DNA of 64,000 nt from Gautieria morchelliformis. Its lineage: Eukaryota; Basidiomycota; Agaricomycetes; Gomphales; Gomphaceae. How positions within the stretch are numbered: position 1 is the first letter of the stretch; every line of letters begins with the position of its first letter. This document shows positions 39,699 to 64,000 of the stretch, in pieces. Location: NCBI GenBank assembly GCA_015179125.1, contig WHVA01000049.1, forward strand, positions 62,001 through 126,000. The letters are read 5' to 3'. A program made the position numbers and the translations under genes. The notes beneath the pieces were generated by a model, which worked only from the letters and a program-made list of their open reading frames with translations, had not been told where the DNA came from and searched no databases.

Positions 39699-39828
39699 TT
39701 CCTATAGGTGAAAGCAGCACGGTGGGAGGTTGTGGGCGCGCTGACAAATGCTGACCAATGCTTGGTCATTAGTTTGTCAGCGGAGCGCGCGAGCGGCGCA
39801 GCCGCGAGCCAAGAACGCTGCGCAGCAT

Positions 39829-40416: not shown

Positions 40417-40419
40417 GTT

Positions 40420-40990: not shown

Positions 40991-41029
40991 CAGCCTCTGC
41001 TTGCTTCACTTTGAGGCCCTTGGGGATAT

Positions 41030-41935: not shown

Positions 41936-41977
41936 TAGGGGACATGAGACATGGGAGAAATGTGTAGAGTCATTACC

Positions 41978-42618: not shown

Positions 42619-42799
42619 TTACCTACCTTGATGTGTTATTTAGAGTTACTTTCAATCAATAAGAAGGGTTTTACTTATCTGAATGAAAATTTCTTATCCG
42701 AGTGTGTTTGACTTATCCCAAGTTTGATTCACCCAATGCGTTTGACCTTACCGATGCATTTGACTTGCACCCCCATGCGAAGTGTGGGTACCCACCTAG

Positions 42800-43008
42800 G
42801 GAATTGATAGCGGAACAAATGGAACTCCTGATGCTCCGGAATTGCTATGTTAAGGGTTAAGTAAGGAAGGCTGGTGAATAGAGTCATAAGGGGAAGTATG
42901 TGAATAGGAAAGAACAAGGAGATCAAAAGGTCGAAGTGTGGACATTGCGGAATAGAGTCAGAGGAGGTGCAGAGGTACCAGAGTTGGTCAAGCAGCATGG
43001 TCATAACA
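42800..43008 (-). repeat. LTR fragment inside Helitron H1
   Basis: One end of the same LTR family, ending CATAACA and followed by TTACC. Its other side was replaced at the inner Helitron 3' end (CTAG at 42796). Confidence 0.75.
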
Positions 43009-44014
43009 TTACCTACCTCAATGTGTTACTTAGAGCTACTTTTAATCAATAAGATGCATTTTACTTATCTGAATGTGTTTGACTTATCCCAAGTTTGATT
43101 TACCCAAGGTGTTTGACTTTGCTATGTGTTTGACCTTACCGAGGCGTTTGACTTGCACCCCCGCGCGAAGCGCGGGTATCCACCTAGTCTAAGAGTTAAA
43201 CACGCTCAGTGGGTTGTGGGCGCTGCTGACCAATGCTTGGTCATCAGTTTGTCAGCGAGCGGCGCAGCCGCGAGCTACAAACACTGCGCAGCAGCGTTCC
43301 AGGTCACGTGACCGGTTCGCGACCATGGTCCGTGCACGACCCTTCGCTTGGTATAAAGAGAGCGATGCTTCAGAACCGCACTCCCCACTGGTGTCCTCCT
43401 GTGTTCTGGCTGTGGTGGCCTTACTACTGCTTTGGCTGGGGCCTTGGTGTCTTTCTGTGTGTCTCTGGGTGTCTTTCTGTGTCTCTCTGGGTGTCATTCT
43501 GTGTCTCTCTGGGTGTCATTCTGTGTGTCTCTGTGTGTCTCTGGGTGTCTTTCTGTGTGTCTCTGGGCTTCTTTGGCTGTGAATTGACACCAGCTTCTGC
43601 TTCAATGTCCTGTATATTTTTTGATATTTTTTCGCAAATTGCTATCAATACACCTAACTTGCTAACCTTAATAATAGCCAACTTAAATATCCTGTACATT
43701 TTTTTGATATTTTTTCGCAAATAGAAAGCAATAAATCTAACTTCCTACCCTTAATAACAGCCAACTTAAATATCCTGTACATTTTTTTGATATTTTTTCG
43801 CAAATAGATATCAATAACTTATTCTGACTTTGCTAAAGTTAATAACAACTTCTGTTTTAATGTAGTGTGTTTTTTTATTACCTTTTTCAAAAAATAAATA
43901 TAGATATCAATAAATTATCCTGACTTTGCTAAAATTAATGACAACAGCTGCTTAAATGTGGTTTCTTTTCCTATTTTATATATGTCACAAAATAGATACT
44001 GATACATGTCCCTG

Positions 44015-44790
44015 ATATGTGTGAGGACACGCTACCTGTGGGGACACACTATTACCTGTGGGGACACGTTACGTATGGGGACATGCTACCTGTGAGGACA
44101 CGTTACGTGTGAGGACACGTTACATGTGAGGACACACTACCTGTGGGCACATGTCACCTGTGAGGACACGCTACCTGTGGGGACACGCTACCTGTGGGGA
44201 CATGTCACCTGTGAGGACACGCTACCTGTGGGGACACATTACATGTGAGGACACGCTACCTGTGGGGACACGTTACATGTGAGGACACGTTACGTGTGGG
44301 ACATGTTATGTGTGGGGACACACTACCTCTGAGGACACGTTACGTGTGGGGACATGTTATGTGTGAGGACACGTTACATGTGGGGACATGCAACCTGTGA
44401 GGACACGTTACGTGTGGGGACACGCTACCTGTGAGCTGTGGGGACATGTCACCTGTGAGGACATGCTACCTGTGGGGACACATTACATGTGAGGACACGT
44501 TACCTGTGAGGACACGCTACCTGTGGGGACAGGTTACATGTGAGGACACGTTACATGTGGGACATGTTATGTGTGGGGACACGCTACCTGTGAGGACACG
44601 TTACGTGTGGGGACACGTTATGTGTGAGGACACGTTACATGTGAGGACACGCTACCTGTGGCAACATGTTACGTGTGGGGACACACTACCTGTGGGGACA
44701 TGTTACGTTTGGGGACATGCTACCTGTGAGGGCACGCTACCTGTGCGGACACGCTACCTGTGAGGACACGTTACGTGTGAGGACATGCTA
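44015..44790 (+). repeat. 17-bp minisatellite in Helitron H2
   Basis: About 45 units built on CTACCTGTGGGGACACG, with alternation of GTGGGGAC and GTGAGGAC. Three units make a 17-codon repeat, which keeps frames open by chance. The inverted counterpart lies at 51566-52225. Confidence 0.9.
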
Positions 44791-44923
44791 TCCAACTGCA
44801 CTTTGGGTCTTCCCCCATTTCTGATTTTGGTATTGTTTCTGGTTCTGTGAGAGTGTCACTGGAGGATCAGCTGGCATATTGATATAACCACATTGTCAAA
44901 ATTCAGGATCCCCAAGATCACTA

Positions 44924-45124
44924 TTGGGTCTATTTCACAATGCACAAGCTTTGAAACCTGTGGATTATGACAATAGGCGCAATCTTATAATCTCTGATGA
45001 TTCAGTCAAGACTATTACCACTTTCATGTCTAGAGTCGCTGGGAGGCCCATCCCAGAGGTCGAGAGAGAGCTCTGCATGTTCAGCTGTTCCATGGGTGCA
45101 TACATGATTCATGATACTATATGA
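44924..45124 (+). other. Conserved 66-codon frame in the 17-bp Helitrons
   Basis: It encodes a peptide containing HNAQALKPVDYDNRRNLI, KTITTFMSRVAGRPIP and EVERELCMF. The minus-strand copy at 51235-51435 differs by only about four residues and keeps the frame. Upstream bases keep similar sequence but contain stops. I do not recognise the family. It may be a captured exon or the rest of an old Helitron gene. Confidence 0.4.
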
Positions 45125-45259
45125 TCAGGGATATATTTTGGATGATGCTATTTACCCCAATGCACTTGACCTTACTGATTCACTTGACCTTACTGATGCA
45201 TTTGACCTTACCAAGGCGCTGGACCTGCACCCCCGCGCTTCGCGCGGGTACCCACCTAG

Positions 45260-45346
45260 TTCATACTAATACTCCTACTCATATTTATTACAAATCTCTA
45301 GCCAAGTACTATTACTTCATATTGCAGTCTAATACTCTCTATGACA
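45260..45346. repeat. Right half of the interrupted AT-rich repeat
   Basis: It continues the sequence broken at 39698: TTCATACTAATACTCCTACTC matches 9457 onward. A different Helitron end follows at 45347. Confidence 0.85.
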
Positions 45347-46117
45347 CTAGCCAATTGACCCGTGCTTCGCACCGGGTTAGCTAAGGCTAACATCGCACAG
45401 GGGTAGTTAATAGTATTAAAGAATTATTTGGTGGAATGAAACACGCATTTAATCAGGCTTTAGCAATACCTCTTTGTATACAATATTAAAGAACATGGAC
45501 TTGTTCCAATTAGCGCAACGTAAAACTGCCCATGGGAAAATACTGCATATTGCAAGTCTACTCCTACCATGCCCCTGTTGTCAGGGTTCACGCATTTCCT
45601 TCCACATGTTTCTATTTCCTTCCATGAGTTTCCGTCACATTCCGTCAGTTTCCATAACCTTCCGTCACCTTCCGTCACATATCACATTCTGTCGCATTCT
45701 GTCACATTCCATCACATGTCACATTCCATCACCTTCCGTAACCTTCTACAAGTTTCTGTCTCCCCTATTATGTAAGCCTTGCCAGCGCTATAAGACTGTA
45801 GCCCGTGTGGTGGCGTTTCCTCAGCTTGATCTCTGAGGATACCCACTACACAGGCAAGTCCCCATGTATCTATCGTTGGTAGAGTTATAAACTGAGGATA
45901 CCCACTACACAGTTGGTCATTGTCCTAGTATCGGCTCTTATCTCCTTGAGTATCTTTGGTTGTGGCTTCGTCATTAGTGTTGCCCTCACACCTGTTCTGC
46001 ACATCAGGATATTCCTGGATGTGGCACAGCACTGGGTAGGGACTGCCTGGGACCAGTGGGATGAGCCTGGATGACCTGAGACTGCCAGGGACCTGTGGGA
46101 TAAGCCTGGATGCGCTG
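45347..46117 (-). mobile_element. Remnant of a different Helitron with helicase C-terminus
   Basis: The 3' end is CTAG (45347-45350) after the hairpin CCCGGTGCGAAGCACGGG, unlike the other elements here. On the minus strand, 45460-45565 encodes GVDLQYAVFSHGQFYVAL, the last conserved motif of Helitron PIF1-type helicases. The rest of the helicase is gone. A CATTCCGTCAC-type low-complexity run lies at 45596-45770, and TGAGGATACCCACTACAC occurs twice (near 45834 and 45893). The right boundary is uncertain. Confidence 0.6.
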
Positions 46118-48157
46118 GGAGGGTAGATGATACCCATGCCTTGCCCAAGGGTTAGGTCAAATACATTGGGTAAATGAAACTTAGGTAAAACACATCTTGT
46201 CACGATTGAAAGTAGCTCTAAGTAACACATCTGGGTAGGTCACATTTCTCCCATGTCTGTGTGCCCAATCATGTGTAGCATGTCCCCATGTATGGCATGT
46301 GTTCCCTGAGTGTAGCATGTCTCCCAAGTATAGTGCGCATAGCATGTCCCCATGCGTAGCATGCCGCCCATGCATAGCATGTCCCCCAAGTAGCATTTCC
46401 CTTGTTTGTAGCATGTCACTTGTTTATAGTGTATCTGCAAGAGCATAAAAGTGAAAGAGATTATTGTAGGGGAAAGTGAAAATAAATAAATGCCAGAAGG
46501 TTGTACAATGGATAACAGAGAAATAGACTCATATTTGCAGGCAGGGCTGTTGTCATTAATTTTTAGCCAATTCAGAGGAATCTATTGATATCAATTTTTT
46601 AAACTATACAGGATATATGTATATACATATAAAATAAAATACAAAAAGGGATAAAAAGGGAGAATTATTGCAAGAAATGACAGAAAAAAACATACCAGAT
46701 GCAGTAATGATGAGCAGGAAAGGGGGGAGGCAATGAGAGGAGCAACCTGGGCTGAAAAGAAGTCAAAAAGAGGTCAAAAAAGCGAAAAATACAGGAAGAA
46801 ACACCACAGACAGAGGCTGATCCTAATAAATATCAAAACAACATAAATATGATAGGAAGAGACACACAAGATGCAGCAATGGCAGACAGGCAAGGTCGGA
46901 GGCACTGAGGGGAGGAACCTGGGCTGAAAAGAAGGCAAAAAGGGTATAAAAAAGCGAAAATTATTGGAAGAAATGATAGATATAATAGGAAAAAACACAC
47001 CAGAGCCAGTAATGACCATCCAGAAAGGTGGGAGGCAATGAGAGGAGCAACATAGGCTGAAAAGGAGGCAGACAGAGGTTGAAAAAGGGAAAATTATAGC
47101 AAGAAATAGCAATATTTACCATGGAGAGAATCTGATTCTAATAAATGTCAAAACAAAACAAATATGATAGCAAGACACATACCAGATGCAGCAATGGCAG
47201 ACAGGAAAGGTGGGAGGCACTGAGAGGAGGAACCTGGGCTGAAAAGATGGCAAAAAGAGGATAAAAAAGCGAAAATTATTAGAAGAAATGACAGATATGA
47301 TAAAGAAAGAACACACAGGAGGCAGTAGTGATGACCGAGAAAGGTGGGAGGCAATGAGAGGAGCAACCTAAGCTGAAAAGAAGTCAAAAAGAGATTAAAA
47401 AAGCGAAAATTATAGCAAGAAATAGCAATATTTACCATAGAGAGCAGCTGATTCTAATAAATATCAAAACATGATAGCAAGACACACACCAGATGCAGCA
47501 ATATCAGACAGGCAAGGTGGGATGCATTGAGAGAGGGGGCTGAGAAGAAGACAAAAAGAGGATAAAAAAGCGAAAATTATTGGAAGAAATGATAGATATG
47601 ATAGGAAAAAACACACCAGAGCCAGTAATTACCATCCAGAAAGGTGGGAGGCAATGAGAGGAGCAGCCTAGGCTGAAAAGAAGTCAAGAGAGGATAAAAA
47701 AGCGAAAATATTAACAATATTTACCTGAGGGGGCTGTAGAAGACAGACAGCCCCAATAACAGACACAGAGAGCCAGACACAGAGAGAGCTAGTAGCAGAC
47801 ACAGAGAGAGCCAGCAGCAGACAAAGATCCAGCAGCAGGCACAGAGATCCAGCAGCAGACACAGAGATCCAGCAGCAGAACAGATCCAGCAGCAGACAGA
47901 CAGATCCAGCAGGCACAGAGACAGTGGGCAGGGGAGCCAGAGGTTGCCAGCAGTTGAGCCAGAGGAAATGCCAACAGGAGGATTGAGGGAAGATGGGTGG
48001 GTGCGCGCGCAGTAGCGTTGGACGCGAACTGGTCACGTGACCAGGAACACTGCTTGGTCGCTTGCGGCTGCGCCGCTAGCGTTCAAACTCAGCAAATTAG
48101 ATAACATTATTACGAAAAACCCCCACAACCGCCCCCCCAGCAACTTTATACTATAGA
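46118..48157 (-). mobile_element. Helitron H3 (micro-exon-module type), non-autonomous
   Basis: The 5' end (TCTATAGTATAAAGTTGC on the minus strand) touches the CTAG of H4 at 48158. The 3' end near 46118-46190 is decayed but keeps the GGTCAAATACATTGGGTAAA stretch. Inside are a short 21-bp array (46255-46440), a module array (46640-47720), a CAGCAGACACAGAGAT-rich run (47760-47920) and a GGTCACGTGACC palindrome (48031-48042). No Rep or helicase is seen. Confidence 0.7.
46640..47720 (-). repeat. Array of exon-like modules in H3
   Basis: About seven units on the minus strand. Each has an acceptor-like end (CCTCTTTTTGCC..TTTTCAG), a ~56-nt core such as CCCAGGTTCCTCCTCTCAG and CATTGCTGCATCTG, then a donor (GTATGTG or GTGTGTT). 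Two module types alternate, so spacing alternates between about 135 and 170 bp. The design is the same as at 58513-59575 but with different sequence. Confidence 0.6.
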
Positions 48158-48356
48158 CTAGGTGGATACCCGCGCTTCGGCCGGGGGTGCAAGTCAAGCG
48201 CATTGGTAAGGTCAAACGCATCAGCAAGGTCAAATGCCTTGGGTAAATCAAACTTGGGATAAGTCAAACACATTGAGATAAGAAAATTTCTTTCAGATAA
48301 GTAAAACACATCTTATTGATTGAAAGTAGCTCTAAGTAACACATCAAGGTAGGTAA

Positions 48357-48917
48357 TGTTATGACCATGATGCTTGACCAACTCTGGTACCTCCATGCCT
48401 CCTCTGGCTCTATTCCGCAACATCCACACTTTGACCTTTTGATCCCCTTGTTCTTTACGATTCACATACTTCCCCTTTTGACTCTATTCACCGGCCTTCC
48501 CTACTTGACCCTTAGCATAGCAAGTCCGGAGCATCAGGAGATCCATTTGTTCCACTATCAATTAGACCCACATTCCCCTTGTTCTTTTGCCTATTGATTG
48601 TTCTTAGTTCTACCCGGCACCCCCTTGTAGTTCCTCTTGTTCCGTATTAGTTACTTACTCCATTTATCCTAGTTACTTTTGCTTGCACTGCAATTGCTTA
48701 CCTCTACCTTCTGACATGTTGTCTCAGCTCTTTGTATAAAACCCAGTCATGTATGCCTCTGTTCTGCAATCAGATAATTGACTATGATATGTGACTCCCT
48801 TTGCGCTGTTTCCTGTTCTTAGCACAGCGAGTACTTGCAAGGCCTCTGTCTCTCTGACCTCTGCCTTCCAACTCGATTTCTGATATCCAACTTAACTCGA
48901 TTCTTGAACCCTTACCT
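48357..48917 (+). repeat. LTR fragment inside H4 (empty-site copy)
   Basis: It starts TGTTATGACCATG after GGTAA and contains TTTGTATAAAACCC. It is cut by the inner Helitron end at 48918. At about 48555 it runs CACTATCAATTAGAC without interruption, the exact site where a second LTR sits in the sister copy at 60240. Confidence 0.8.
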
Positions 48918-49059
48918 CTAGGTGGATACCCATGCTTCACACGGGGGTGTAGGTCAAACACATTGGGTAAATCAAACTTGGGATAAGTAAAACACATCTC
49001 ATTGCAATTGAAAGTAGCTATAAGTAACACATCAAGATAGGTAATGTCTCTACACATGG

Positions 49060-49880
49060 CTGCATGTGCCCAAGTAGTGTGCATAGCATGTCCTCCATCC
49101 ATAGTGTGTCTTCACATGTAGTGTGTCCCCACATGTAGCATGTCCCCAAGTACAGTGTGCGTAGCATGTCCCACATGCATAGCATGTCCCTGGTTTATAG
49201 CATGTCCCCAAACGTAGCGTGTCCCTAAATTATAGCATGTGTGTCCCCCATGCATAACGTGTCCACATGTGTAGCATGTCCCTACATGTAGTGTGTGTAG
49301 CATCTCCCTCAAGTATAGTGTGCAAAGTGTGTCCCCAATGCATAACATGTCCCCCAAGTATAGTGTGCATAGCATGTCCTTTGTTTGTAGTGTGTCCCCC
49401 AAGTATAGCATGTGTAGAATGTCCCTTGTTTGTAGTGTTTTCCCCTGTAGTGTGTCCCTTGTTTGTACCATGTCCCCCAAGCATAGTGTGTCCCCACATA
49501 TAGTGTGCACATCCCCATGCATAGCATGCTTGTCCCCATGCATAACATGCTTGTCCCCATGCATAACATGCGTGTCTCCACGCATAACATGGGTGTCCCC
49601 AAGCATAGCGTGGTGTCCCCATGGATAGCATGCTTATCCCCATGCATAACATGTGTGTCTCCACGCATAGCATGTGTGTCCCCATGCATAGCCTGTCTGT
49701 CCCCAAGGATAGTGTGTCCCCACATGTGGCATGCATCTCCCCATGCATAACATGCATGTCCCCATGCATAGCAGGCGTGTCCCCAAGCATAGCGTGTGTG
49801 TCCCCACGCATAACATGCGTGTCCCCATGCATAGTGTGTGTAGCATGCCCCTCAAGTATAGCATGCGTAGCATATCCCCA
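49060..49880 (-). repeat. 21-bp minisatellite in H4
   Basis: Inverted counterpart of the 41030 array. Many frames are open on both strands; they are repeat artefacts. Confidence 0.9.
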
Positions 49881-50784
49881 AGGGCCTCAAAGTGAAGCAA
49901 GCAGAGGCTGTTACTACTTATTAACTTTTAGCAAACTCAGGGACATGTATCACTATCTATTTTGTGACATATACAGACATAAATAAAATAGTCAAGGAAA
50001 CCATATTTAAGCAGCTGCTGTCATTAATTTTTGGCAAAGTCAGGATTATCTATTTTGCGAAAAAATGCCAAGAAAATGTCCAGTACATGTAAGCTGAAGC
50101 TGTTATTAATTTTAGCAAAGTTAGGATTATCTATTTTTCGAAAAATGTCAAAAAAATGCACTGTACATTTAACCTGGAGCTGTTGTCAATCTTCACAAAG
50201 TCAGGATAATTTATTGATATCTATTTGCGAAAAAATGTCAAAAAAGTACAGTACATTGAAGCAGAAGCTGTTATTAATGCCCAGCCAAAGCCATAGTAAG
50301 CCAGCCACCAGTATAGCCAGAGAGGAGTGGCTGGTAAGCAGCTTTACAGTAAATAAAACAATAAAACAAACCACATTTAAAAGCAGAATCTATTGTCATT
50401 AATTTTAGAGGAAACTTATTGATGTCTATTTTCGAAAAAAACCTGAAAAATATTGATATTAAAACATTTTTTTTCAGCAGTCTTTGGATGTTATTTAAAT
50501 CTATTTTCGAAAAAAAATCACAAAAATATAATGCACATGTGACAAATATATGATGAAAACAAAAAGGAACCAATAAAATTGCCAACACACATATAATAAA
50601 ATACATGGCAATGCATTAAAAAAAAGATATTACCTACCAATAGCCAGCCAGCCATAGCAATAGACAGCCAGCCAGCTAAAGCAGCAGACAGCAGACAGCA
50701 GACAGTAGACAGAGCAGAGCAGACAGCAGAGAGAGGAATAGCTGGTTGGGCAGGTTCCTGGCGTTCCCTCCTTACCGTTCGGCC

Positions 50785-50935
50785 TTTATACCGCGCGCAC
50801 GTGTCGTGCACGGACCACGCTCGCGTATGGGCGCTCTGGTCGCGAACGGGTCACGTGACCGCTGCGCAGCGTTCTATGCTCGTGGCTGCGCCACTCGCCG
50901 CTGACCTAATTTGGAACGCAAACGGTCACGTGACC
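50785..50935 (-). promoter_or_regulatory. Promoter-like 5' region of H4
   Basis: TATAAA on the minus strand (50785-50790) with two upstream GGTCACGTGACC palindromes and CTGCGCAGC repeats, as in H1 and H7. Confidence 0.6.
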
Positions 50936-51234
50936 CTGCTGCGCAGCATTCTTGGCTCGCGGCTGCGCCGCTCGCGTCCGATTGGCCAGCTGTCTAAGGC
51001 TGACCTAAAACCTGACATAAGCTCGATGCCCACAACCCACCGAGGCGCTTTCATATAGTGTAACTAGGTGGGTACCCGCGCTTCGCGCGGGGGTGTAGGT
51101 CAAGCGCCTTGGTAAGGTCAAATGCATCAGTAAGGTCAAATGCATCAGTAAGGTCAAATGCATCAGTAAGGTCAAGTGAATCAGTAAGGTCAAGTGCATT
51201 GGGGTAAATAGGATCATGCAAAATATATCCCTGA

Positions 51235-51435
51235 TCACATAGTATCATGAATCATGTATGCACCCATGGAACAGCCAAACATGCAGAGCTCTCTCTCGAC
51301 CTCTGGGATGGGCCTCCCAGCGACTCTAGACATGAAAGTGGTAATAGTCTTGACAGAATCCTCAGAGATTATAAGATTGCGCCTATTGTCATAATCCACA
51401 GGTTTCAAAGCTTGTGCATTGTGAAATAGATCCAA
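51235..51435 (-). other. Conserved 66-codon frame, second copy
   Basis: Counterpart of 44924-45124 with nearly the same peptide (HNAQALKPVDYDNRRNLI, then SEDSVKTITTFMSRVAGRP). Kept open in both copies; function unknown. Confidence 0.4.
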
Positions 51436-51565
51436 TAGTGATCTTGGGGATCCTGAATTTTGACAATGTGGTTATATCGATATGCCAGCTGATCCTCCGG
51501 TGACACTCACAGAACCAGAAACAATGCCAAAATCAGAAATGGGGGAAGACCCAAAGTGCAGTTGG

Positions 51566-52225
51566 ATAGCATGTCCCCACACGTAACGTGTCCTCACAGG
51601 TAGTGTGTCCCCACACATAACGTGTCCTCACAGGTAGCGTGTCCCCACATGTAACGTGTCCTCACAGGTAGCGTGTCCCCACACGTAACGTGTCCCCACA
51701 GGTAGCATGTCCTCACAGCTAGCATGTCCCCACACGTAATGTGTCCCGACACGTAATGTGTCCCCACAGGTAGCGTGTCCCCACAGGTAGCGTGTCCCCA
51801 CCGGTAGCATGTCCCCACCGGTAGCGTGTCCCCACATGTAACATGTCCCCACCGGTAGCGTGTCCCCACACGTAACATATCCCCACTGGTAGTGTGTCCT
51901 CACATGTAACGTGTCCCCACACATAACATGTCCCACACGTAACATGTCCTCACAGGCAGCGTGTCCCCACACGCAACATGTCCTCACAGGTAGCATGTCC
52001 CCACATGTAATGTGTCGCCACAGGTAGCGTGTCCCCACAGGTAGCATGTCCTCACAGGTAGCATGTCCCCACACGTATGTGTCCCCACCGGTAGCGTGTC
52101 CCCACAGGTAGCATGTCCCCACATGTAACGTGTCCTCACAGGTAGCATGTCCCCACACGTAACGTGTCCCCACAGGTAGCGTGTCCTCATAGGTAGCATG
52201 TCCCCAAACGTAACGTGTCCTCACA
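51566..52225 (-). repeat. 17-bp minisatellite in H5
   Basis: About 38 units of the CGTGTCCCCACAGGTAG type, the reverse complement of the array in H2. Confidence 0.9.
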
Positions 52226-53282
52226 CATATCAGGGACATGTATCAGTATCTATTTTGTGACATATATACAATAGCAAAAGAAACCACATTTAAGCAGCTG
52301 TTGTCATTAATTTTAGCAAAGTCAGGATAATTTATTGATATCTACCTTTTGAAAAAATGTCAAAAAAATGTACACTACATTTAAGCTGAAGCTGGTACAA
52401 AGTTTAGCAAAGTCAGGATAATTCATTGATATCTATATTTATTTTTCAAAAAAAGATAAAAAGAAAACACACTACATTAAAACAGAAGTTGTTATTAACT
52501 TTAGCCAAGTCAGAATAAGTTATTGATATCTACTTGCAACAAAATATCAAACAAATGTACAGGATATTTAAGTTGGCAGTGATTAAGGTTAGCAAGTTAG
52601 ATTTATTGATGTCTATTTGCGAAAAAATATCAAAAAAATGTACAGGATAATTAAGTTGGCTATTAATAAGTTAGGTTTATTGATATGTATTTGCGAAAAA
52701 ATATCAAAAAAATATACAGGACATTGAAGCAGAAGCTGGTGTCAATTCACAGCCAGAGAAGCCCAGAGACACCCAGAGACACACACAAAGACACCCAGAG
52801 CCCAGCCAAAGCAATAGTAAGCCCACCAGCACAGCCAGAACACAGGAAGACACCAGTAGGGAGTGCGGTTCCGCAGCATCGCTCTCTTTATACCGAGCGA
52901 AGGGTCGTGCACGGACCACCCTCGCGTATGGTCGCGATGAACGCGAACCGGTCAGGTGACCTGGGACCCTGCTGCGCAGCGTCAATGGTCTGGCCTGGGC
53001 CAGGGGCCTAGGGCTCGCGGCTGCGCCGCTCGCTCCGCTGACCTAACTTTTACGTAATATTATTTGTAATATTAATTGTCAGCCTCAACGCCCACAACCC
53101 ACTGAGCGCGTTTAACTCTTAGATAGACTAGGTGGGTACCCGCGCTTCGCGCGGGGGTGTAGGTCAAACGCCTTGGTAAGGTCAAACGCATCAGTAAGTC
53201 TAACACATCGGTAAGTCTAACATATCGGTAAGGTCAAGTACATTGGGGAAAATCAAAGTAATCAATTTGCATCAAGTAGAAA

Positions 53283-55014
53283 TCAAGGAGCTCTAAGTAA
53301 TACATCTTTATATACCCTGTTGGTTGTGTCCAAACCCTCCTCAAGCAAGACCTTCACTCTGTTCCAATTGGTCCCTCTTGATACACCAACATACAACTGA
53401 CCATGTCCAAACACTGGATATCTCAGGTCCAGCCCAACCGTACCCAAAGACTGTCCTTGAGACTTGTTGATAGTCATTGCAAATGCCAAATGCACTGGAA
53501 ACCCTCCTTTGCAGCACAAATGGCAACTCTCCCTCTGATGGCTTAATGATGATCCTGGGGATGAATGCAATATTTCCTGCACATGGACCTGAGATGATCC
53601 TGACCTCCAACACTCTAATGCTTATCCTCACCAACTGCAACCTTGTCCCATTGCATAGTCCTTGCTTCTGATCCAAATTGCGCAACAGCATCAGAGGCAC
53701 TCCAGGCTTGACTTCCAAGTGAGCAGGAGGAAGACAGCCCATCTCTATGGATTTCAGATACTCCACAGGATACTGATCTGCATCGTCAGATTTTTCAATG
53801 GAATTTGCGCAGTGCAAGACCTGAGCATCACCTGGAAACTCCCTAAACACCATGGAATTGATCTCACTGACCTCAGTGTTTCTGGCACAGAGGATGGCAC
53901 GCTCCAAAAAGTAATTGTCCTGGGCAGGGACTTGATTGCCAATGCCAGGGTATATTTCCTGGATCAGATATTCAATTCCAGGGCCGCAAACCATGTGAGG
54001 AGGGAGTGAGAATGTATTATCTAGTGGGAGATCCTTTCCCTGACCCACATTCTGCAGCCATTCTGCAAACCTGGCTCTGTCAGGGTCATTTCTCACCCGC
54101 ATGGTCTCTGTCAGATGGAGGACCTTGATCTTTGGCCACAGATGTGACTTCTGAAGGGTAGCTCCCATGATATCCTCCTTGGAGCCTTTAGGGACAATAG
54201 GGAGAGCCTGCTGAAAGTCACCTCCAAAGGCGACTGTGATGCCACCAAAGGGTCTGTCAGGCTGGTCAAGGAAATCCCTCAGTGTCCTGTCAATGGCCTC
54301 TATGGCATGGCGATGCTGCATTGCAGCCTCATCCCAGATGAGGAGACTGGCCTGTCTCAGCATGTCAGCCTTGTCAGAGTCCTTTGTGATGGAGGAGAAA
54401 GAGCGCTCATGGACAGGAATGGGAATTCCAAGCATGCTATGAGAGGTTGTACCCTTAGTGAGGATAGGTCCAGCCATTGCAGATGAGGCTACTGCAATCA
54501 CAATGAGGCTCTCCGCTCTACAGGAGTGGATTAGAGTGTTCCATGTGAATGATTTCCCTGCACCACCTGATCCAGTGACGAAAAACATTTGTCCATCAGG
54601 TTTGCCCCGAGCATCTCTGGTCAGTGCCGACCGTAATATCTGATCATGCACAGACCTTTGCCCCTCATTCAGCTTAGGAACCTCCTCATCAGCTATGTCC
54701 CTCTCTTCAACAGGGTCATAGTCCCTCTGCTCAGCTATGAACCTGTTTCCAATGAGGGCCTCCCACTCGCCTGCCACCCGAGGCATATCATCAAAGCTGC
54801 TCAAGGACATTCCACCCTGCTGGAGGATTTTTTCCAGGAGAAAGAGGCCAAAATCATAAACCTGATCGTCCTGTGGATCCTGCATACCATGTCTGATTTG
54901 GAGCTGATGTCTGAGATCATCACATGTGCTCCTTGAAGCCATCCCATAGTCTGCTGGGACCCGATGGATTGCAATGGCCAAGGATGGTGGCAAAGAGATG
55001 TCTGAGCTGAGCAC
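53283..55014 (-). pseudogene. Helitron PIF1-type helicase, interrupted by a frame change
   Basis: The main frame (53341-55014) has P-loop FVTGSGGAGKS (about residue 150), Walker B LLIWDEAAMQ (about 230), and later helicase motifs including QALPIVPKGSKE and GVPLMLLRNLDQKQGLCNGT. The final motif, [14 protein letters not shown] then [15 protein letters not shown], is in another frame (53283-53582), so a frame change lies near 53510. The helicase unwinds DNA for rolling-circle transposition, normally as one polypeptide with Rep. Its upstream frame joins that of Rep near 54925 only with a second shift: the Rep frame reads KEHM then stop, while the continuation CDDLRHQLQ is in the helicase frame, consistent with loss of two bases in a TG repeat. 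Confidence 0.85.
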
Positions 55015-58000
55015 CTGTTTTCATGCCACTGGTTTCCTGGAGACACAACCTCAACTCCTGATCGTCATCCAGAAGTCCCCTTGCACGACAGGCCTCCTTG
55101 TAAGGAGCATATTGTATTCCATCCACCGACCTAAGCTCCTCAAAGGATCTAGCCCCCTTGACCACTATGAGGAGAGTGCACACAAAAAATCTCTCTCCTG
55201 ATCTAGGGTTTGCAAAGTGAAGGCGACCGATGCTATAACCTCCTTGGCGTGGTGTCCATACCTTGTCCTGTGAGTGCCAGGTAAAATGCTCAGGAAACTC
55301 CACATAGAGCAGATCACGTGCTTCAGGGTAGATATCATTGGCCTCAAAGTAAGCCATGAGTGGTGTCTTTTTCGCCTCAGCCCTTTCCAGGATGTTGTCC
55401 ACATCCTGGTTGGGATCAAAGATGATTGTGTGGTGGTCCTTTTCATGGACTGGCAGTGCCATGACTGCAGGCACCTGGGTGTGTATTTCCCGCTCCAGCA
55501 ACCTCCAACAGGCCTCATGAGCACTGACATAGCGAGCGTCCAGGTACTGCTTAATTTCATCCTGGGTGCGACCAAACTCCATGGTGGTCCCATCATGGCC
55601 CTTGTAGAGATACTTGTTGATATACTTGATACACCTCACATTGATGGTGAGTTCAGGGTTGATGTGACACCAGAATTTGAGCAAGAGCAGAGCAGAGTAT
55701 GGCACAACCCATCTGTTGTCCAGCATGTCACCTCTGACATTGTGCAGCCTTCCATCATTGCGACGACGATATTTTGGATATCCATCCTCATTCAGACTGG
55801 TTTCCTCACAGAATGGCTTTGGGAAGTTTTTCTTGCACTTGCCATTTCCCATGCAGGGTGCGTTTGGTTTCATTTCTCCACAGGGACCATGTGTCATCAG
55901 CTCACAGACCAATCGGTAGAGGACAGGATGAGTCTCTGGATCAGGGAACTCTGCTGAAATCATTGAATCCACCTCATGTGGATGTCTGATCTTGGAATCT
56001 CTTTCAAACCAGATAAGAATATGCATGTGTGGGAGTCCCCTTTTCTGGAATTCAATGGTGTGCACGCGAGCGACGGTTTCCCCAAAAATCTTTTCCTTGA
56101 CGATCAAGTCAATGAGGTATTTCTTTTTGAGCTGGAACACCCGCGACACCAGGTCAGGTCTGTCCTGAGGAGTTTGTCCAGGCAACAATGCATCCAATAC
56201 CTCCTGCCAGTTGGGATTGGCAGTCGTGGTAATAAAGAGATCGGCCACACCATGCTTCCTTGAAATGGCCAGAGAGTTCTGCAGGTTTTCCTGCATGTCC
56301 CGTGTCCACCCCTGAAATGTGGCAGGCAGAATGGATCTTGTGCCCAAGTTGTTTGGATCTCTGTCATTGTCATTGCGATGAAAGGCATCCATCATCTGGT
56401 TATACATCTCAGCACGGAGAGTGTGTTGATTTGTCCTGATCCACCACAGCCTGCTTTGCTCTGCAGCGGCCCAGGAGTCTACAATGTACTGCTGGAATAA
56501 TTTGCCAGCACGCAGGAGTGTTGTAGGTTCTTCTGTTCTCTGGAAGAGACGATAGGAATGGTACTGAATTTGGGTGACACGCCCAGGTCGCTCACGCCCG
56601 CCTGGTAATTGGCGATAGCAAATACCAGGTTGCCACCCCAACTCTCCCCTGGGAAAGAGCAAGACATAGTGAAGAGAGGCATAGTTTGGATTCATATCGG
56701 ATACCCTTCGAAAGCATCCACCTTTGAGCTGGACAATAACATCCCTAGGTTCAGGGTTGATGCCATCTCCAGGAAGAACCACCGCAATCTCATCTGCAGT
56801 AGGGATATTATACCTCCTAGGATCCCTGTGTTCCCTGTACGTGAGCCTAGCCCGGATCTCACCATTCTGTCCCTGAGCTCTGACCCTCTCGGCCGCTTGT
56901 CTATATATGGCAACATGAGGATTGCATAGGAGGAGCATTTCCTGCAAGTCTCCCATGATATTTGGAGACAGACCTGGGTTATGCGCGTTCCTCTGTGCCA
57001 AAGCCAATGCTGGATCATATATGTAAAGTTGGGCATACTGTATCTGCCTCCCAGGGTTAGGGATGAGAGAGTCATGAATATGATACAGTTTGCCCTGTAG
57101 CTTGAGGACATATGGACCACGACCCTCCCGAAGCAAATTGAGGTCAAAGTCGGCACCCAAGGAAGTGAATGCAAACACCGCATTATACTGCCTGATGTTC
57201 TGGCGAAACTGTTTGGCCTCAGGGTCCTGGCCCTCTAAGAGCCGTCTCAATGGCTGAGGGAGCACTGGCAGCTCTGGAAGCTGCACCTTTCCTTCTAAAC
57301 AGCAATCACCAAATCTGGGCCGCTGATTTGAGGATCTCAGCAGGTGTTCTGCCATCCAGTGTAATGCTCCACAGTCAGGGCAGGGAATAACCATGGGACC
57401 CAGATCATGACGCTGCACATCTGCCTCAATTATTCTAGAGCGACCAAGTGGAATAGGAGGAGGAGGTCGCTGGGGACGCTGCCGAGGTACAGGGAGTGGC
57501 TGAGGAGGCCGAGGAGGTGCAGGGAGTGGCTGAAGAGGCTGTGGAGGTGAAGGGAGTGGCTGAGGAGGCTGAGGAGGAGCAGGGAGTGGCTGAGGAGGCT
57601 GAGGAGGTGCAGGCAGTCGCTGAAGAGGCCGCAGAAGTGCAGGGAGTAGCCGAGGCATTGGTCTTACTGCATTAGCCTGAGCCCGCAATGCTGCGACCGC
57701 TGCAGAACCTACTACAGGAGGTCTAGGAGCTGGTTGTAAAGGTGCCTGCCTGTGTCTTCCCAAGGGCTGTGCTGGGATAGGCTGTATACCAGCAGCATGA
57801 GCATGCAAATCTGCCACCGCTGTAGAGCCTACTACAGGCTGTCCAATTCCAGCCGCCTGAGCATGCAACTGAGCAATTGCTGCAGAACCTACTACAGGAG
57901 CTGGCTGTACAGGGTCTGGCCTATTTCTTCTCAGGGGCTGTAATGGTGGGATACCTGCTAACTGTGCACGAAGGGCTGCCACCTGCTCTCCAGGACTGGG

Positions 58001-58396
58001 ATCAGGTGGATATGATGGCCCCGCAAGCGTAGGAGGGCGCAATGGAGCTGGCTGTACAGGGTCTGGCCTATGTCCTCTCAGGGGCTGCCATGGTGTGATA
58101 ACTGCTAACTGAGCCCGAAGGGCTGCCACCTGCTCTGTAGGACTGGGATCAGGAGCAAGTGATGGCCCTGCCACAGGTTGTTGAAAAGGATCGGCTGCAC
58201 TGCTTCTAGAAGGAGGGTGAGGGATGGCAAAAGGCGGTGGTGGAGGGGGTGGCTGGTTCTGAGCTCCAATATGCGCTCTCCGACGCGCTCTCCGATGACT
58301 GGGTGGTGTCATCACCTCCTGCCCCTCCCTCGCACTTTCACGCACCTGCCGACGGTTGCTCTCTGGGGTAGATGGATCCCTGAGAAGTGCAGGCAT
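54920..58396 (-). CDS. Helitron Rep (HUH nuclease) protein with Pro-rich extension
   Basis: 1158 codons from an ATG at 58396. Residues 1-330 are a Pro/Gln/Ala-rich region with repeats such as PPQPLPAPPQPPQPLP and VVGSAAVADLHAHAAGI; these are unusual for Helitrons. A zinc-finger-like segment follows (CPDCGALHWMAEHLL...FGDCCLEGK, about 337-370), then the Helitron-like N-terminal domain. The Rep domain has the metal-binding block GLPHMHILIWFE (about 786) and the double-tyrosine block KYINKYLYKG (about 922), which nick and join DNA at the element ends. The frame stops after FKEHM where the helicase should continue. Spliced exons upstream of the ATG are possible: 58436-58511 reads DQWLCNPSEIPAQPVFPEF between an acceptor and a GTAAGT donor. 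Confidence 0.85.
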   Translation of the reverse strand: MPALLRDPSTPESNRRQVRESAREGQEVMTPPSHRRARRRAHIGAQNQPPPPPPPFAIPHPPSRSSAADPFQQPVAGPSLAPDPSPTEQVAALRAQLAVITPWQPLRGHRPDPVQPAPLRPPTLAGPSYPPDPSPGEQVAALRAQLAGIPPLQPLRRNRPDPVQPAPVVGSAAIAQLHAQAAGIGQPVVGSTAVADLHAHAAGIQPIPAQPLGRHRQAPLQPAPRPPVVGSAAVAALRAQANAVRPMPRLLPALLRPLQRLPAPPQPPQPLPAPPQPPQPLPSPPQPLQPLPAPPRPPQPLPVPRQRPQRPPPPIPLGRSRIIEADVQRHDLGPMVIPCPDCGALHWMAEHLLRSSNQRPRFGDCCLEGKVQLPELPVLPQPLRRLLEGQDPEAKQFRQNIRQYNAVFAFTSLGADFDLNLLREGRGPYVLKLQGKLYHIHDSLIPNPGRQIQYAQLYIYDPALALAQRNAHNPGLSPNIMGDLQEMLLLCNPHVAIYRQAAERVRAQGQNGEIRARLTYREHRDPRRYNIPTADEIAVVLPGDGINPEPRDVIVQLKGGCFRRVSDMNPNYASLHYVLLFPRGELGWQPGICYRQLPGGRERPGRVTQIQYHSYRLFQRTEEPTTLLRAGKLFQQYIVDSWAAAEQSRLWWIRTNQHTLRAEMYNQMMDAFHRNDNDRDPNNLGTRSILPATFQGWTRDMQENLQNSLAISRKHGVADLFITTTANPNWQEVLDALLPGQTPQDRPDLVSRVFQLKKKYLIDLIVKEKIFGETVARVHTIEFQKRGLPHMHILIWFERDSKIRHPHEVDSMISAEFPDPETHPVLYRLVCELMTHGPCGEMKPNAPCMGNGKCKKNFPKPFCEETSLNEDGYPKYRRRNDGRLHNVRGDMLDNRWVVPYSALLLLKFWCHINPELTINVRCIKYINKYLYKGHDGTTMEFGRTQDEIKQYLDARYVSAHEACWRLLEREIHTQVPAVMALPVHEKDHHTIIFDPNQDVDNILERAEAKKTPLMAYFEANDIYPEARDLLYVEFPEHFTWHSQDKVWTPRQGGYSIGRLHFANPRSGERFFVCTLLIVVKGARSFEELRSVDGIQYAPYKEACRARGLLDDDQELRLCLQETSGMKTGAQLRHLFATILGHCNPSGPSRLWDGFKEHM

Positions 58397-58512
58397 ACGA
58401 GTAGAGAGAGGATAAAGATATCAATATCAGACTTACATCGCAAGCAGACTAAAGCAAACTCAGGGAAAACAGGCTGTGCGGGTATCTCAGATGGATTGCA
58501 AAGCCACTGATC

Positions 58513-59575
58513 CTAATATAAATACTGCAAATAGCAGATACAGTTACAAAAACGTACCAGAAAGGGGATAATACCCAGGTAGGGTATGCAGTAGTGACTG
58601 GACAAATGCACTTGAAAAGTGCCTACAAAATGCCAAAAAAGCAAAGTTATAGCAAATAAGAACACAATAAGCATCAAGAAAAGGCAGGTACAATAGAATA
58701 ACACTCACCAGAAACAACCAGGTACTCAGTGCAGCAGTGACAGGACAAATATCACTTGAAAAGTGCCTAAAAATGCCAAAAAAGCGAAATTATAGCAAAT
58801 AAGAACACAATAAGCATCAGGAAAAGGCAGATACAATACCATAACACTCACCAGAAACACCCAGGTACTCAGTGCAGCAGTGACAGGAAGAATGTCACTT
58901 GAAAAGTGCCTGAAAAAATGCCAAAAAAGCGAAATTATAGCAAATAAGAACACAATAAGCATCAAGAAAAGGCAGATACAATACTATAACACTCACCAGA
59001 AACACCCAGGTACTCAGTGCAGCAGTGACAGGAAGAATGTCACTTGAAAAGTGCCTGAAAAAATGCCAAAAAAGCGAAATTATAGCAAATAAGAACACAA
59101 TAAGCATCAAGAAAAGGCAGATACAATACTATAACACTCACCAGAAACACCCAGGTACTCAGTGCAGCAGTGACAGGAAGAATGTCACTTGAAAAGTGCC
59201 TGAAAAATGCCAAAAAAGCGAAATTATAGCAAATAAGGACACAATAAGCATCAGGAAAAGGCAGATACAACAGCATAACACTCACCAGAAACACCCAGGT
59301 ACTCAGTGCACCAGTGACAGGACAAATATCACTTGAAAAGTGCCTGAAAAAATGCCAAAAAAGCGAAATTATAGCAAATAAGACACAATAAGCATCAGGA
59401 AAAGGCAGATACAACAGCATAACACTCACCAGAAACACCCAGGTACTCAGTGCACCAGTGACAGGACAAATATCACTTGAAAAGTGCCTAAAAAAGGCCA
59501 AAAAAGCGAAATTATAAATAACCAACATAAAAAGGCAGTTTCAGTAGCATCAAACTCACCAGAAAGAACCTAGAT
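58513..59575 (-). repeat. Tandem ~145-bp modules resembling micro-exons upstream of Rep
   Basis: Seven to eight units on the minus strand. Each has a 58-nt core (for example 58852-58909) preceded by GGCATTTTTTCAG and followed by GTGAGTGTTAT, then ~87 bp of T-rich intron-like sequence with TTGCTATAATTTCGC. The core has one open frame (HFSSDILPVTAALSTWVFL). Since 58 is not a multiple of three, adding units shifts the frame. Reading straight through is also open in places and gives hydrophobic strings, so an unspliced coding repeat is an alternative. Confidence 0.65.
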
Positions 59576-59835
59576 AGGATGTTAATGGAAGGGATGCAGG
59601 TGGTGGGAGGGATGGGATGGGATGGGATGATGGTAGAAGGAGGGCAGAGGGGACCGGCTGCGCAGCGTCTGCCAGGTCAGCCAGCGCGGTACCGGCAAGC
59701 CCCAGAGACCGGTTGGTCTGGGCTGGGCCAGGGCCTAGGGCTCGCGGCTGTGCCGCTCGCTCCGCTGACCTAATCTTTATGTAACATTATTAGTCAGTGG
59801 CACCCACAACCCACTGCCCCCGTTTCACTCTTAGA
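59576..59835 (-). promoter_or_regulatory. 5' region of the Rep/helicase Helitron
   Basis: It shares the CAGTGGGTTGTGGG terminal block and the GGCTCGCGGCTG..CCGCTCGCTCCG repeat with the other copies. It also has a GGGATGGGATGGGAT run and GGTTGGTCTGGGCTGGGCC. Neither a TATA box nor the CACGTG palindrome is obvious. Confidence 0.4.
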
Positions 59836-60034
59836 CTAGGTGGATACCCGCGCTTCGCGCGGGGGTGCAAGTCAAACGCCTCGGTAAGGTCAAACGCATC
59901 AGCAAGGTCAAACGCCTTGGGTAAATCAAACTTGGGATAAGTCAAACACATTCGGATAAGAAATTTTCTTTCAGATAAGTAAAATGCATCTTATTGATTG
60001 ACAGTAGCTCTAAGTAACACATCAAGGTAGGTAA

Positions 60035-61330
60035 TGTTATGACCATGCTGCTTGACCAACTCTGGTACCTCCATGCCTCCTCTGGCTCTATTCCGCAATG
60101 TCCACACTTTGACCTTTTGATCCCCTTGTTCTTTACTATTCACATACTTCCCCTTTTGACTCTATTCACCGGCGTTCCCTACTTGACCCTTAGCATAGCA
60201 AGTCCGGAGCATCAGGAGATCCATTTGTTCCACTATCAATGTTACGACTGTTCCCCTCAACCATCTCCGCCATATCCGCATATCCTCCGCACCACCTCTG
60301 CACCGCCTCTGCACCACCTCCGACTCTATTCCACAACATCCGCACCATCCGCAACCCTCTACCTCAACCCTTGTGATTTCAGTACCCCTGGCCACCTCCA
60401 GATACCGGCCCCCGTACTCGACCCTGAACACAGCAAGATACCATTTCCGTAATTCTGTTTCTTCCGAGGCCTATTGTACTTGCTTGCCTTGTTCTTTGCC
60501 ATTGTACTTACCCTACCCTGCACCCCCCTTGTCATCCCATTGTTCCGCATTAGTTACTTGCCCCATATGTCTATCCGATTCCTGCACTCTCCAGAATTTG
60601 CTTAGTACCATACCATTACCTGTTGCTTCAGCTCGTTGTATAAAACCCCCTCATGTATGTCTCCGTTCCTGCAATCAGATAATCAACTTCGATACGTGAT
60701 TCCCTTCGCACTGTCTCCTGTTCTTAGCACAGCGAGTTTTGCTAGTCTTGTCTCCTTCCGCTCTCGACCCTCTGTCCTCCGCCTCTTCCGACCTTTGTTC
60801 TCCGACCCTCGAACCTTGACTCTCAGTACTCTGTTCCCGACTTCTGCCTTCTCCGATATCCGCAAGTCAATCCCAAATACTTAGGATGGTAGTTCATCAG
60901 GGGCACAACACATAAGTTGAAGCCGTTGTCCTTTCCAGTTCTGACCTCTGTGAATTCCAATACGTAACAATCAATTAGACACACATTCCCCTTGTTCTTT
61001 TGCCTATTGATTGTTCTTAGTTCCACCCGGCACCCCCTTGTAGTTCCTCTTGTTCCGTATTAGTTACTTACTCCATTTATCCTAGTTACTTTTGCTTGCA
61101 CTGCAATTGCTTACCTCTACCTTCTGACATGTTGTCTCAGCTCTTTGTATAAAACCCAGTCATGTGTGCCTCTATTCTGCAATCAGATAATTGACTTTGA
61201 TATGTGACTCCCTTTGCACTGTTTCCTATTCTTACCACAGCAAGTACTTGCAAGGCCTTTGTCTCTCTGACCTCTGCCTTCCAACTCGATTTCTGATATC
61301 CAATTTAACTCAATTCTTGACCCCTTACCT
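60035..61330 (+). repeat. LTR fragment inside H7, itself interrupted by a solo LTR
   Basis: Same LTR family and same right-hand cut as 48357-48917. Continuity is broken at 60235-60974 by the younger LTR. Confidence 0.8.
60240..60969 (+). repeat. Solo LTR (730 bp) nested in the LTR fragment
   Basis: TGTTACGACTG...TACGTAACA with exact target duplication ATCAA (60235-60239, 60970-60974). It contains TTGTATAAAACCCCC followed by GCAATCAGATAATC, similar to the host LTR, so the two are related sub-families. The empty site is preserved at about 48555. Confidence 0.9.
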
Positions 61331-61469
61331 CTAGGTGGATACCCATGCTTCACACGGGGGTGTAGGTCAAACGCATTGGGTAAATCAAACTTGGGATAAG
61401 TAAAACACATCTCATTGCAATTGAAAGTAGCTATAAGTAACACATCAAGATAGGTAATGTCTCTACGCA

Positions 61470-62690
61470 TGTCTGCATGTGCCCAAGTATAGTGTGCATA
61501 GCCTTGAATATAGCATGCTTATTGTGTCCCTGGTTTGTAACATGCACACATAACATGTCCCCAAGTATAGTGTGCGTAGCATGTCCTCCATGCATAGTGT
61601 GTCTCCACATGTAGCATGTCACCAAGTACAGTGTGCATGGTGTGTCCCACATGCATAGCATGTCCCTGGTTTGTAGCATGTCCCCAAACATAGTGTGTCC
61701 ATAAATTATAGCATGTGTGTCCCCCATGCATAGCGTGTCCACATGTGTAGCATGTCCCTACATGTAGTGTGTGTAGCATATCCCTCAAATATAGTGTGCA
61801 AAGTGTGTCCCCAATGCATAACATGTCCCCCAAGTATAGTGTGCATAGCATGTCCTTTGTTTGTAGCGTGTCCCCCAAGTATAGCATGTGTAGAATGTCC
61901 CTTGTTTGTAGTGTTTTCCCCTGTAGTGTGTCCCTTGTTCGTACCGTGTCCCCCAAGCATAGTATGTCCCCACATATAGTGTGCACATCCCCATGCATAG
62001 TGTGCATGTGCCCATGCATAGCCTGTGTGTCCCATCCCCCAAGCATAGTGTGTCCCCACATGCAGCATGTCACCAAGTACAGTGTGTGTGGCATGTCCCA
62101 CATGCATAACATATCCCTCAAGTATTTTGTGTGTAGCATGTCCTTAGCATGGTCGCATCATGTCCACATGTGTAGCATCTCCCTACACATAGTGTATGTA
62201 GCCTCTCCCTCAAGTATAGTGTGCACAGTGTGTCCCCCATGCATAACATGTCCCCCAAGGATAGCACGTATAGAATCTCCCTTGTTTTTCCCCATGCATA
62301 GTGTGCGTAGTGTGTCTCTTGTTTGTACCGTGTCCCCCAATCATAGTGTGTCTGTCCCCAAGCATAGTATGTCCCCAAGCATAGTGTATCCCACCATATA
62401 GTGTGCACATCCCCATACATAGTGTGTGTGTGCCCATGCATAGCATGCTTGTCCCCATGCATAACATGTGTGTCTCTACGCATAACATGCATGTCCCCAA
62501 GCATAGCATGCTGTCCCATGCACAACACGCATGTCTCCACGCCTAACGTGCATGTCTCCCACCTAACATGCATGTCTTCATGCCTAACATACATGTCTCC
62601 ATGCATAACATATGTGTCTCCATGCATAGCGTGCGTGTCCCCATGCATAGTGTGTGTAGCATGTCCCAATGGCATGTGTAGCATATCCCA
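61470..62690 (-). repeat. 21-bp minisatellite in H7
   Basis: The longest of the 21-bp arrays (about 58 units), inverted relative to 41030. Open frames on both strands are repeat artefacts. Confidence 0.9.
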
Positions 62691-63677
62691 AGGGCCTCAA
62701 AGTGAAGCAAGCAGAGGCTGTTACTTATCATTTACTTTTCGCAAACTCAGGGACATGTATCAATATCTATTTTGTGACATATACAGACATAAATAAAATA
62801 GTAAAGGAAGCCATATTTAAGCAGCTGCTGTCATTAGTTTTAAAAAGTCAGGATTATCTCAAAACAAATGTCCAGTACGTTTAAGCTGAAGTTGTTATTA
62901 ATTTTAGCAAAGTCAAGATTATGTATTTTTTGAAAAATGTCAAAAAAATGCACTGTACATTTAAGCTCCAACTGTTGTCAATTTTCATAAAGTCAGGATA
63001 ATTTATTGACATCTATCTGCGAAAAAATGTCAACAAAGTACAGTACATTGAAGCAGAAGTTGTTATTAATGCCCAGCCAAAGCCAGAGAAGCCCAGAGAC
63101 TGACAGAGAAACCCAGAGCCCAGCCAAAGCCATAGTAAGCCAGCCACCAGTATAGCCAGAGAAGGAGTGCCTGGCAGCTTTACAGTAAATAAACCAACAA
63201 AACAAACCACATTTAAAAGCAGAACATATTGCCATTAATTTTAGAAGAAACTTATTGATGCCTATTTTCAAAAAAAACCTGAAATATATATATATCAAAA
63301 TACATTTTTTTCAGCAGTCTTGGGATTTTATTTAAATCTATTTTCGAAAAAAATAACAAAAATATAAAGCAAATGTGAATACAATATGATAAAAAAAAAG
63401 GAACCAATAAAATTACAAACACAAATAAAATAAAATACATTGGAATGCATTAAAAAAGAGATATTACTTACCAATAGATAGTCAGCCAACCAAAGCCATA
63501 GACAGCCAGCCAGCTAAAGGAGGAGACAGCAGACAGCACCCAGAGCACAGAGCAGACAGCGGACAGAGCACAGAGCAGACAGCACAGAGCACAGAGCAGA
63601 CAGAGCACATAGCAGACAGCAGATAGAGGAATCGCCGGTTGGGCAGGTTCCTGGCGTTATGTCCTTACCGTTCAGCC

Positions 63678-63825
63678 TTTATACCGTGCACGCATGTCGT
63701 GCACGGACCACACTCGCGTATGCGCGCTCTGGTCGCGAACGGGTCACGTGACCACTGCGCAGCGTTCTCTCGCAGCTGCGCCACTCGCCGCTGACCTAAT
63801 TTGGAACGCAAACGGTCACGTGACC
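63678..63825 (-). promoter_or_regulatory. Promoter-like 5' region of H7
   Basis: TATAAA on the minus strand with two GGTCACGTGACC palindromes upstream and CTGCGCAGCG repeats; nearly the same as the region at 39829-39976 on the plus strand. Confidence 0.6.
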
Positions 63826-63940
63826 ATGCTGCGCAGCGTTCTTGGCTCGCGCGCTCCGCTGACAAACTAATGACCAAGCATTTGTCAGCATTGGTCAGCG
63901 CGCCCACAACCTCCCACCTAGGCGCTTTCATATAGTGTAA

Positions 63941-64000
63941 CTAGGTGGGTACCCGCGCTTCGCGCGGGGGTGTAGGTCAAACGCCTCAGTAAGGTCAAAC
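63941..64000 (-). mobile_element. 3' end of a further Helitron (H8), cut by the window edge
   Basis: CTAG at 63941-63944 with the CCGCGCTTCGCGCGG hairpin and the start of the GGTCAAACGCCT subterminal repeats. It shows that the head-to-tail array continues past the window. Confidence 0.85.

Follow-up and report, generated by a model that had tools for sequence, protein, structure and literature searches.

In the genome of the fungus Gautieria morchelliformis (Basidiomycota, Gomphales), Helitrons are commonly joined head-to-tail, the 3' end of one element touching the 5' end of the next with no base in between. One such array occupies the minus strand from position 46118 onward in a stretch of 64,000 nucleotides, hereafter the window (assembly GCA_015179125.1, contig WHVA01000049.1, positions 62,001 to 126,000 of the forward strand; contig handle C548), and it is an instance of a pattern common in this genome, not a local oddity. 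The zero-gap junctions, the mixture of families, the same-strand bias, the exactness to the base and the A that precedes most unjoined 5' ends are all observed directly in the assembly. As for the origin of the arrays, we consider it probable (about 0.64) that they were built by separate insertions, each hitting the 5' boundary of a resident Helitron precisely and on the same strand.

The window array and its junctions

The array consists of six Helitrons and extends past the edge of the window; positions beyond 64000 are given as equivalents in the same numbering. Its members are as follows.

63941..64000 in the window, minus strand: element 1 (array head), W-type, 5' start at equivalent 70352, 6412 bases, with a single Rep/helicase open reading frame (ORF) of 1752 amino acids (aa)
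59836..63940, minus strand: element 2, Y-type (5' TTACACTATATG), composite with two 3' ends, an internal one at 61331, after which comes AGGTAAGG, and another at 59836
53128..59835, minus strand: element 3, X-type (5' TCTAAGAGTGAAAC), Rep/helicase element with an interrupted frame
51064..53127, minus strand: element 4, X-type with a TCTA 5' extension (5' end TCTA-TCTAAGAG)
48158..51063, minus strand: element 5, Y-type composite; AGGTAAGG follows its internal 3' end at 48918
46118..48157, minus strand: element 6 (array tail), Z-type (5' TCTATAGTATAAAG), 3' end decayed, its exact position uncertain within 46118-46124

At 63941/63940, 59836/59835, 53128/53127, 51064/51063 and 48158/48157, the 3' terminal sequence CCACCTAG abuts a Helitron 5' end with zero gap. 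The sequences that follow it directly are TTACACTATATG (at 63940 and 51063), TCTAAGAGTGAAAC (59835), TCTATCTAAGAGTTAAAC (53127) and TCTATAGTATAAAG (48157). An earlier note on this DNA had claimed five zero-gap junctions and a head-to-tail array of at least six Helitrons; all five are present at the bases it named, with the refinement that the element at 53127 starts with TCTA, and the count of six holds with the head starting at 70352. There, a full W-type 5' end is preceded by two short stubs, TTCCTATA and TTCCTA. Beyond 70352, the next 1648 bases gave no match to another Helitron 3' end, hence the count of six. The CTAG ends at 61331 and 48918 lie within composites and do not mark junctions between elements. 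Of the two composites, element 2 has the longer tail, exceeding that of element 5 by 735 bases; judged by eye, the additional stretch (~60236-60968, minus strand) is bounded by GTTACG on one side and CGTAAC on the other and resembles a small nested insertion.

That these are Helitrons follows from several features. Both domains of the expected protein, Rep (HUH) and a Pif1-like helicase, are encoded by elements 1 and 3 (Helitron_like_N, PF14214, and PIF1, PF05970): element 1 carries them in its one ORF, and element 3 in two ORFs in different frames, 54920-58396 (1158 aa, Helitron_like_N) and 53341-55014 (557 aa, PIF1), a split that an intron or a frame shift may explain. The larger of these two ORFs also contains HMH and Y..KY motifs, in keeping with a Rep/helicase protein. 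No Rep/helicase ORF was seen in elements 2 and 4. The 3' ends have the CTRR form, reading CTAG at the five junctions and the two internal ends. Among the eight ends that were folded, a GC-rich hairpin stands before the 3' end in the same register in five (63941, 59836, 53128, 51064 and 48918), and the 61331, 48158 and decayed 46118 ends folded differently. The 5' dinucleotide agrees only in part with the canonical form, being TC in the X and Z types and TT in the Y and W types. Finally, insertion took place between A and T (A/T): genome-wide, A precedes 99 of 113 unjoined X-type ends, and T follows each of the 20 outward-facing 3' ends of the sample described below.

The four additional bases of element 4 deserve a comment. 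The same CTAG-TCTA-TCTAAGAG join recurs in contigs C191 and C371, and A-TCTA-TCTAAGAG is found at locus L143; TCTA therefore looks like part of a sub-family 5' end and not like filler. The idea that TCTA at 53128 is filler or the remnant of a nested insertion was dropped, since the extension recurs elsewhere and the window array shows no matching remainder after it.

Joining of Helitrons across the genome

The assembly comprises 122.07 megabases in 1113 contigs. The searches used exact-match patterns, so that the counts are lower bounds, slightly inflated by duplicated or allelic contigs. The 3' terminal pattern GGGTAYCCACCTAG has 1429 exact matches (the reversed-pattern control has 2), and every flank was inspected for the first 100 of them, listed in contig order. 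Another Helitron 5' end is joined directly to 67 of these 3' ends (64 recognized by script, and L074, L091 and L092 by eye, L092 showing only 13 bases before its contig ends), 13 are taken to lie inside composites, and the remaining 20 border other DNA or ends that were not recognized. Among the internal ends, ten are followed by AGGTAAGG and three (L056, L087 and L090) by a related tail. Within the 20 outward-facing ends, the pairs L030/L032 and L057/L068 look like repeated or allelic sites. With L092 left out, 60 of the 66 sampled junctions are distinct.

A family-blind pattern gives 907 head-to-tail junction matches (reversed-pattern control, 1). By eye, five of the 100 listed lie off the exact boundary (C17:474, C53, C78:5122, C102:147304 and C142:197252). 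From the AT density of the window, random A/T insertion would be expected to yield about 0.12 same-strand boundary matches. The head-to-head pattern, which needs two exact 8-base words and is thus somewhat stricter, has eight matches, or seven once an inverted repeat on C992, unrelated by eye, is set aside. The sole exact head-to-head join is at C269:119302-119335, where two W-type 5' ends abut at an A/T boundary.

The 5' ends tell the same story. Out of 417 X-type 5' ends, 304 directly follow CCACCTAG, 99 follow A and 14 follow neither. Ten X ends are separated from CTAG by 1-25 bases, seven of them being among the 99. Exact joins account for 204 of the 342 Y/W-type 5' ends, and joins at A/T sites a few bases inside these ends number four (plus an uncounted match on C652). 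Within 10 kilobases (kb) of 172 listed 5' ends (all 100 listed of X type and 72 of the 100 listed of Y/W type), 72 neighbours point in the same direction and 2 in the opposite one. In short, joining is specific for one strand and in most cases base-exact, a pattern that points to the site where the transposase itself cleaves and not to any nearby A/T.

Rival origins and the order of insertion

How do such arrays arise? The earlier note had proposed two routes, insertion time after time at the A/T immediately ahead of a 5' end already in place, or rolling-circle read-through, and had suggested a genome-wide count of junctions, with exact joins of mixed sub-families pointing to insertion and identical units to concatemers. 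That count, with its 907 head-to-tail matches and its predominantly distinct junctions, favours insertion, as does the relatedness of the joined elements. In four arrays, none of 17 elements has its direct neighbour as best match, whether by matched bases or by identity; the best-match identities are 78.7-93.6%, and the 17 are a small part of the genome's copies. Three of them find their best match at a non-adjacent position of their own array: in the window array, elements 1 and 3, which alone in the set exceed 6 kb, match each other, and in the C140 array element 3 matches element 1. The note's statement that the window array mixes sub-families, includes a Rep/helicase copy and is not one unit duplicated is borne out by this comparison, by the W, X, Y and Z types and by the domains of element 3.

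Rolling-circle concatemers, formed when the copying of one donor goes on for more than one round, or does not terminate, and the resulting multimer inserts, would give zero-gap CTAG/T joins that resemble a circle junction. Tandem arrays in bats and silkworm are thought to result from bypassed termination (PMC4067079), and the composite-internal 3' ends also fit bypass. Since neighbours come from different families and direct neighbours are not best matches among the 17 elements compared, tandem duplication or concatemer formation was rejected as the general cause, and we regard it as quite improbable. A further point against it comes from the terminal types, for which 57 of 100 rows were tabulated, the rest having other end types or no family. 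Downstream families X, Y, W and Z number 6, 9, 7 and 1 after TAC/C ends and 19, 7, 4 and 4 after TGC/T ends. In elements with both ends read, X ends in TAC/C in seven of eight (one in TGC/C) and Y/W in TGC/T in seven of eight, the exception being the W head of the window array, which ends in TAC/C. Joins between unlike types are therefore no rarer than like ones and, if anything, favoured. Read-through may instead have made the composite elements, whose structure differs from zero-gap joins.

Could two co-excised Helitrons have been joined 3' to 5' off the chromosome and inserted as a pair? Such trans-joined intermediates would explain exact, same-strand, mixed-family joins without a genomic target. 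The same pair would then be expected at several sites, yet the sampled junctions mostly differ from one another (60 of 66), and of the five groups that recur two are the contig pair C101/C122, whose sequence is the same. Copies of X speak against the idea as well. In a sample of 49 (first 580 bases), those at least 98.5% alike include joined and unjoined ones, so that X copies of nearly the same sequence are found at ordinary A/T sites as well as behind unlike upstream Helitrons; the unjoined L136, for instance, is near-identical to L147, L155 and L164, which are joined behind different upstream ends. This origin is, on balance, unlikely. Very little credence goes to a generic hot spot, that is, insertion into any exposed A/T in AT-rich or open DNA where 5' ends happen to lie. 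In Pleurotus, helitrons often land in AT-rich regions holding other helitrons (PMC4289320), and here a few off-boundary insertions do occur, in both orientations. However, A/T reads alike on both strands, so that an open or AT-rich target would take both orientations and the nearby A/T sites; for exact joins neither is seen, one orientation prevailing by hundreds to one and the sites just inside Y/W ends being used ~50 times less (4 versus 204). For exact joins, the hot spot was rejected on these grounds. That repeats were wrongly joined at their ends during assembly is scarcely credible: the junctions are known from the assembly alone, and the small contigs C101 and C122 look noisy, but the joins run into the hundreds, are spread over many contigs, share one orientation and are mostly base-exact, and C101 and C122 carry the same junction order.

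Separate insertion at resident 5' ends thus remains the preferred explanation, and from the sequence we infer both a nick and an order of events. The place that a transposase must cut to start transposition is strand-specific and exact, which makes the nicked resident 5' end the likely acceptor. A transposase bound to the resident's 5' terminal sequence would nick the boundary between the A of the host DNA and the first T of the element, the same cut that would start the resident's own transposition; for this family, an HUH nuclease with 5'-phosphotyrosine chemistry has been described (PMC5876387). The CTAG-3' end of the incoming element would be joined to the nicked resident 5' T. Placed upstream in this way, the newcomer would restore an A/T boundary with its own 5' end, so that growth of the array would take place at its head.

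The A/T rule favours the same order. If a newcomer needs A before it and T after it, it can enter ahead of a resident 5' T and not behind a 3' CTAG, where the site reads G/T; upstream members would consequently be the later arrivals. In 20 X ends lacking an exact join, picked from the listed matches on long contigs, A stood in front of 18, T in front of L127 and G in front of L140; L141, one of the 18, has its A through a TCTA extension behind a Helitron 3' end. In the window array, the only one compared in this respect, the head ORF is whole, the interior Rep/helicase copy is interrupted and the tail 3' end is decayed, as expected if the head is youngest. For three joins inside a 5' end (at C188, C612 and C263), a cut-off 5' piece is expected upstream of the newcomer, and it is present at C188. 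A comparison of C101 with C122 as haplotypes told nothing about order, because the stretches compared are one noisy sequence (91.9% identity over 1910 columns).

Several results weigh against this explanation. The cut-off 5' piece was not seen at C612 and C263 in the 4 kb fetched, where the next element is itself joined. At some array heads, stacked 5' stubs outnumber the cut-off remainders, and matching remainders are rare. At L122 (C188:50300-50800), the stack consists of TTACACTATA, a 23-base Y stub, TTACACTATA and four TTCCTA ahead of a full W end, and short stubs are likewise stacked ahead of the full W end of the window array head (L165, near C548:132352). Such stacks could be remnants of earlier insertions carried by later transposition, as suggested for elements with several 5' termini (PMC5148889), or could result from slippage. 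The comparison of ages leaned the expected way, with unjoined copies more alike, and was not significant: the median nearest-neighbour identity was 0.985 for 18 unjoined X copies and 0.972 for 31 joined ones (p = 0.44; L140 dropped, L141 moved to the joined set and 10 joined copies added). The type of the upstream end and the family that follows it are not clearly independent (p = 0.05). For the spacer between the window array and its neighbour, described below, a second allele did not appear among the 40 matches scored of 1578 candidates (query 45262-46100); of these, only its own locus covers the full stretch, the others covering a dispersed repeat in the middle part. For the maize pair (PMC2267711), there are lines with only one of the two elements, and the options given are that the second inserted beside the 3' end of the first at a GT site, or that the elements arrived in the opposite order and one was later excised. 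The GT-site option is the opposite of a newcomer placed upstream.

Neighbouring features and comparison with known systems

A second array, on the plus strand (39699-45259) and outside the one described in the earlier note, stands tail-to-tail with the window array, 858 bases away.

39699..43187, plus strand: second array, element 1, W-type composite with an internal 3' end at 42799
43188..45259, plus strand: second array, element 2, X-type, zero-gap junction at 43187/43188
45260..46117, no strand: spacer separating both arrays, its middle a dispersed repeat

Its internal CTAG end at 42799, like those at 61331 and 48918 on the minus strand, lies inside a composite; what follows these ends is AGGTAAGG or GGAATTG. 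Directly ahead of this array, at 39429-39657, an 18-base repeat is present in 12.7 perfect copies. Minisatellites with units of 17-21 bases occur at 41134-41429, 44020-44785, 49512-49841, 51567-52225 and 62429-62649, all in Helitrons without a Rep/helicase ORF. Farther away, at 17549-21793 on the minus strand, an ORF of 1414 aa encodes a Copia-type polyprotein with gag, integrase and RVT_2 domains.

Helitrons that adjoin one another have been met before. A review notes that they prefer to insert near other Helitrons (PMC12477314), distantly related ones directly adjoin in bat and maize (PMC4067079), and tandem Helitrons are known from bats, plants and silkworm (PMC5876387, PMC4067079). The closest likeness is the maize pair, in which, as here, two unlike Helitrons lie end to end, one junction lacks the usual A/T and consecutive insertions are invoked; it is a single pair, called the first maize case, with its order left open, whereas here two-thirds of the sampled 3' ends (67 of 100) are joined and both bias and exactness are counted (PMC2267711). 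The bat and silkworm arrays, as described in PMC2267711, PMC5876387 and PMC4067079, share the perfect head-to-tail junctions. They are attributed to bypassed termination, whereas the direct neighbours here are unlike and the pattern has been counted genome-wide. Among the FoHelis of Fusarium oxysporum and its relatives, one element lies 2 bp upstream of another's partial 5' end, three stand in tandem in Metarhizium, and several short 5' termini resemble the stubs seen here; these are single cases with non-canonical ends, in contrast to the CTAG ends and genome-wide pattern of G. morchelliformis (PMC5148889). Helraiser, an experimental bat element, inserts at A/T without target duplication, a site preference common to the elements here; joining at resident 5' ends was not met in the accessible text of PMC5876387. 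In the open-licence literature searched, as far as its accessible passages go, there is no report of a genome with most of its Helitrons so joined, nor of such strand bias and exactness. Within that literature, the extent, exactness and strand bias look new, adjacent unlike Helitrons being already known from maize and bats.

What does this mean for Helitron biology? Targeting beyond A/T and the origin of arrays have so far been explained by separate insertion and by rolling-circle read-through. Hundreds of junctions now provide a count, mostly exact, same-strand and of mixed families, which makes the idea of a nick at the resident 5' end directly testable. A broader and more tentative proposal, to which we give somewhat less than even odds, is that the resident 5' cleavage site may be the main integration target, on one strand only; the arrays would then serve as landing pads that renew themselves, sparing the remainder of the genome and uniting unlike elements for composite formation. 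If true, this would suggest how Helitrons multiply with limited gene damage and how unlike elements meet to form composites.

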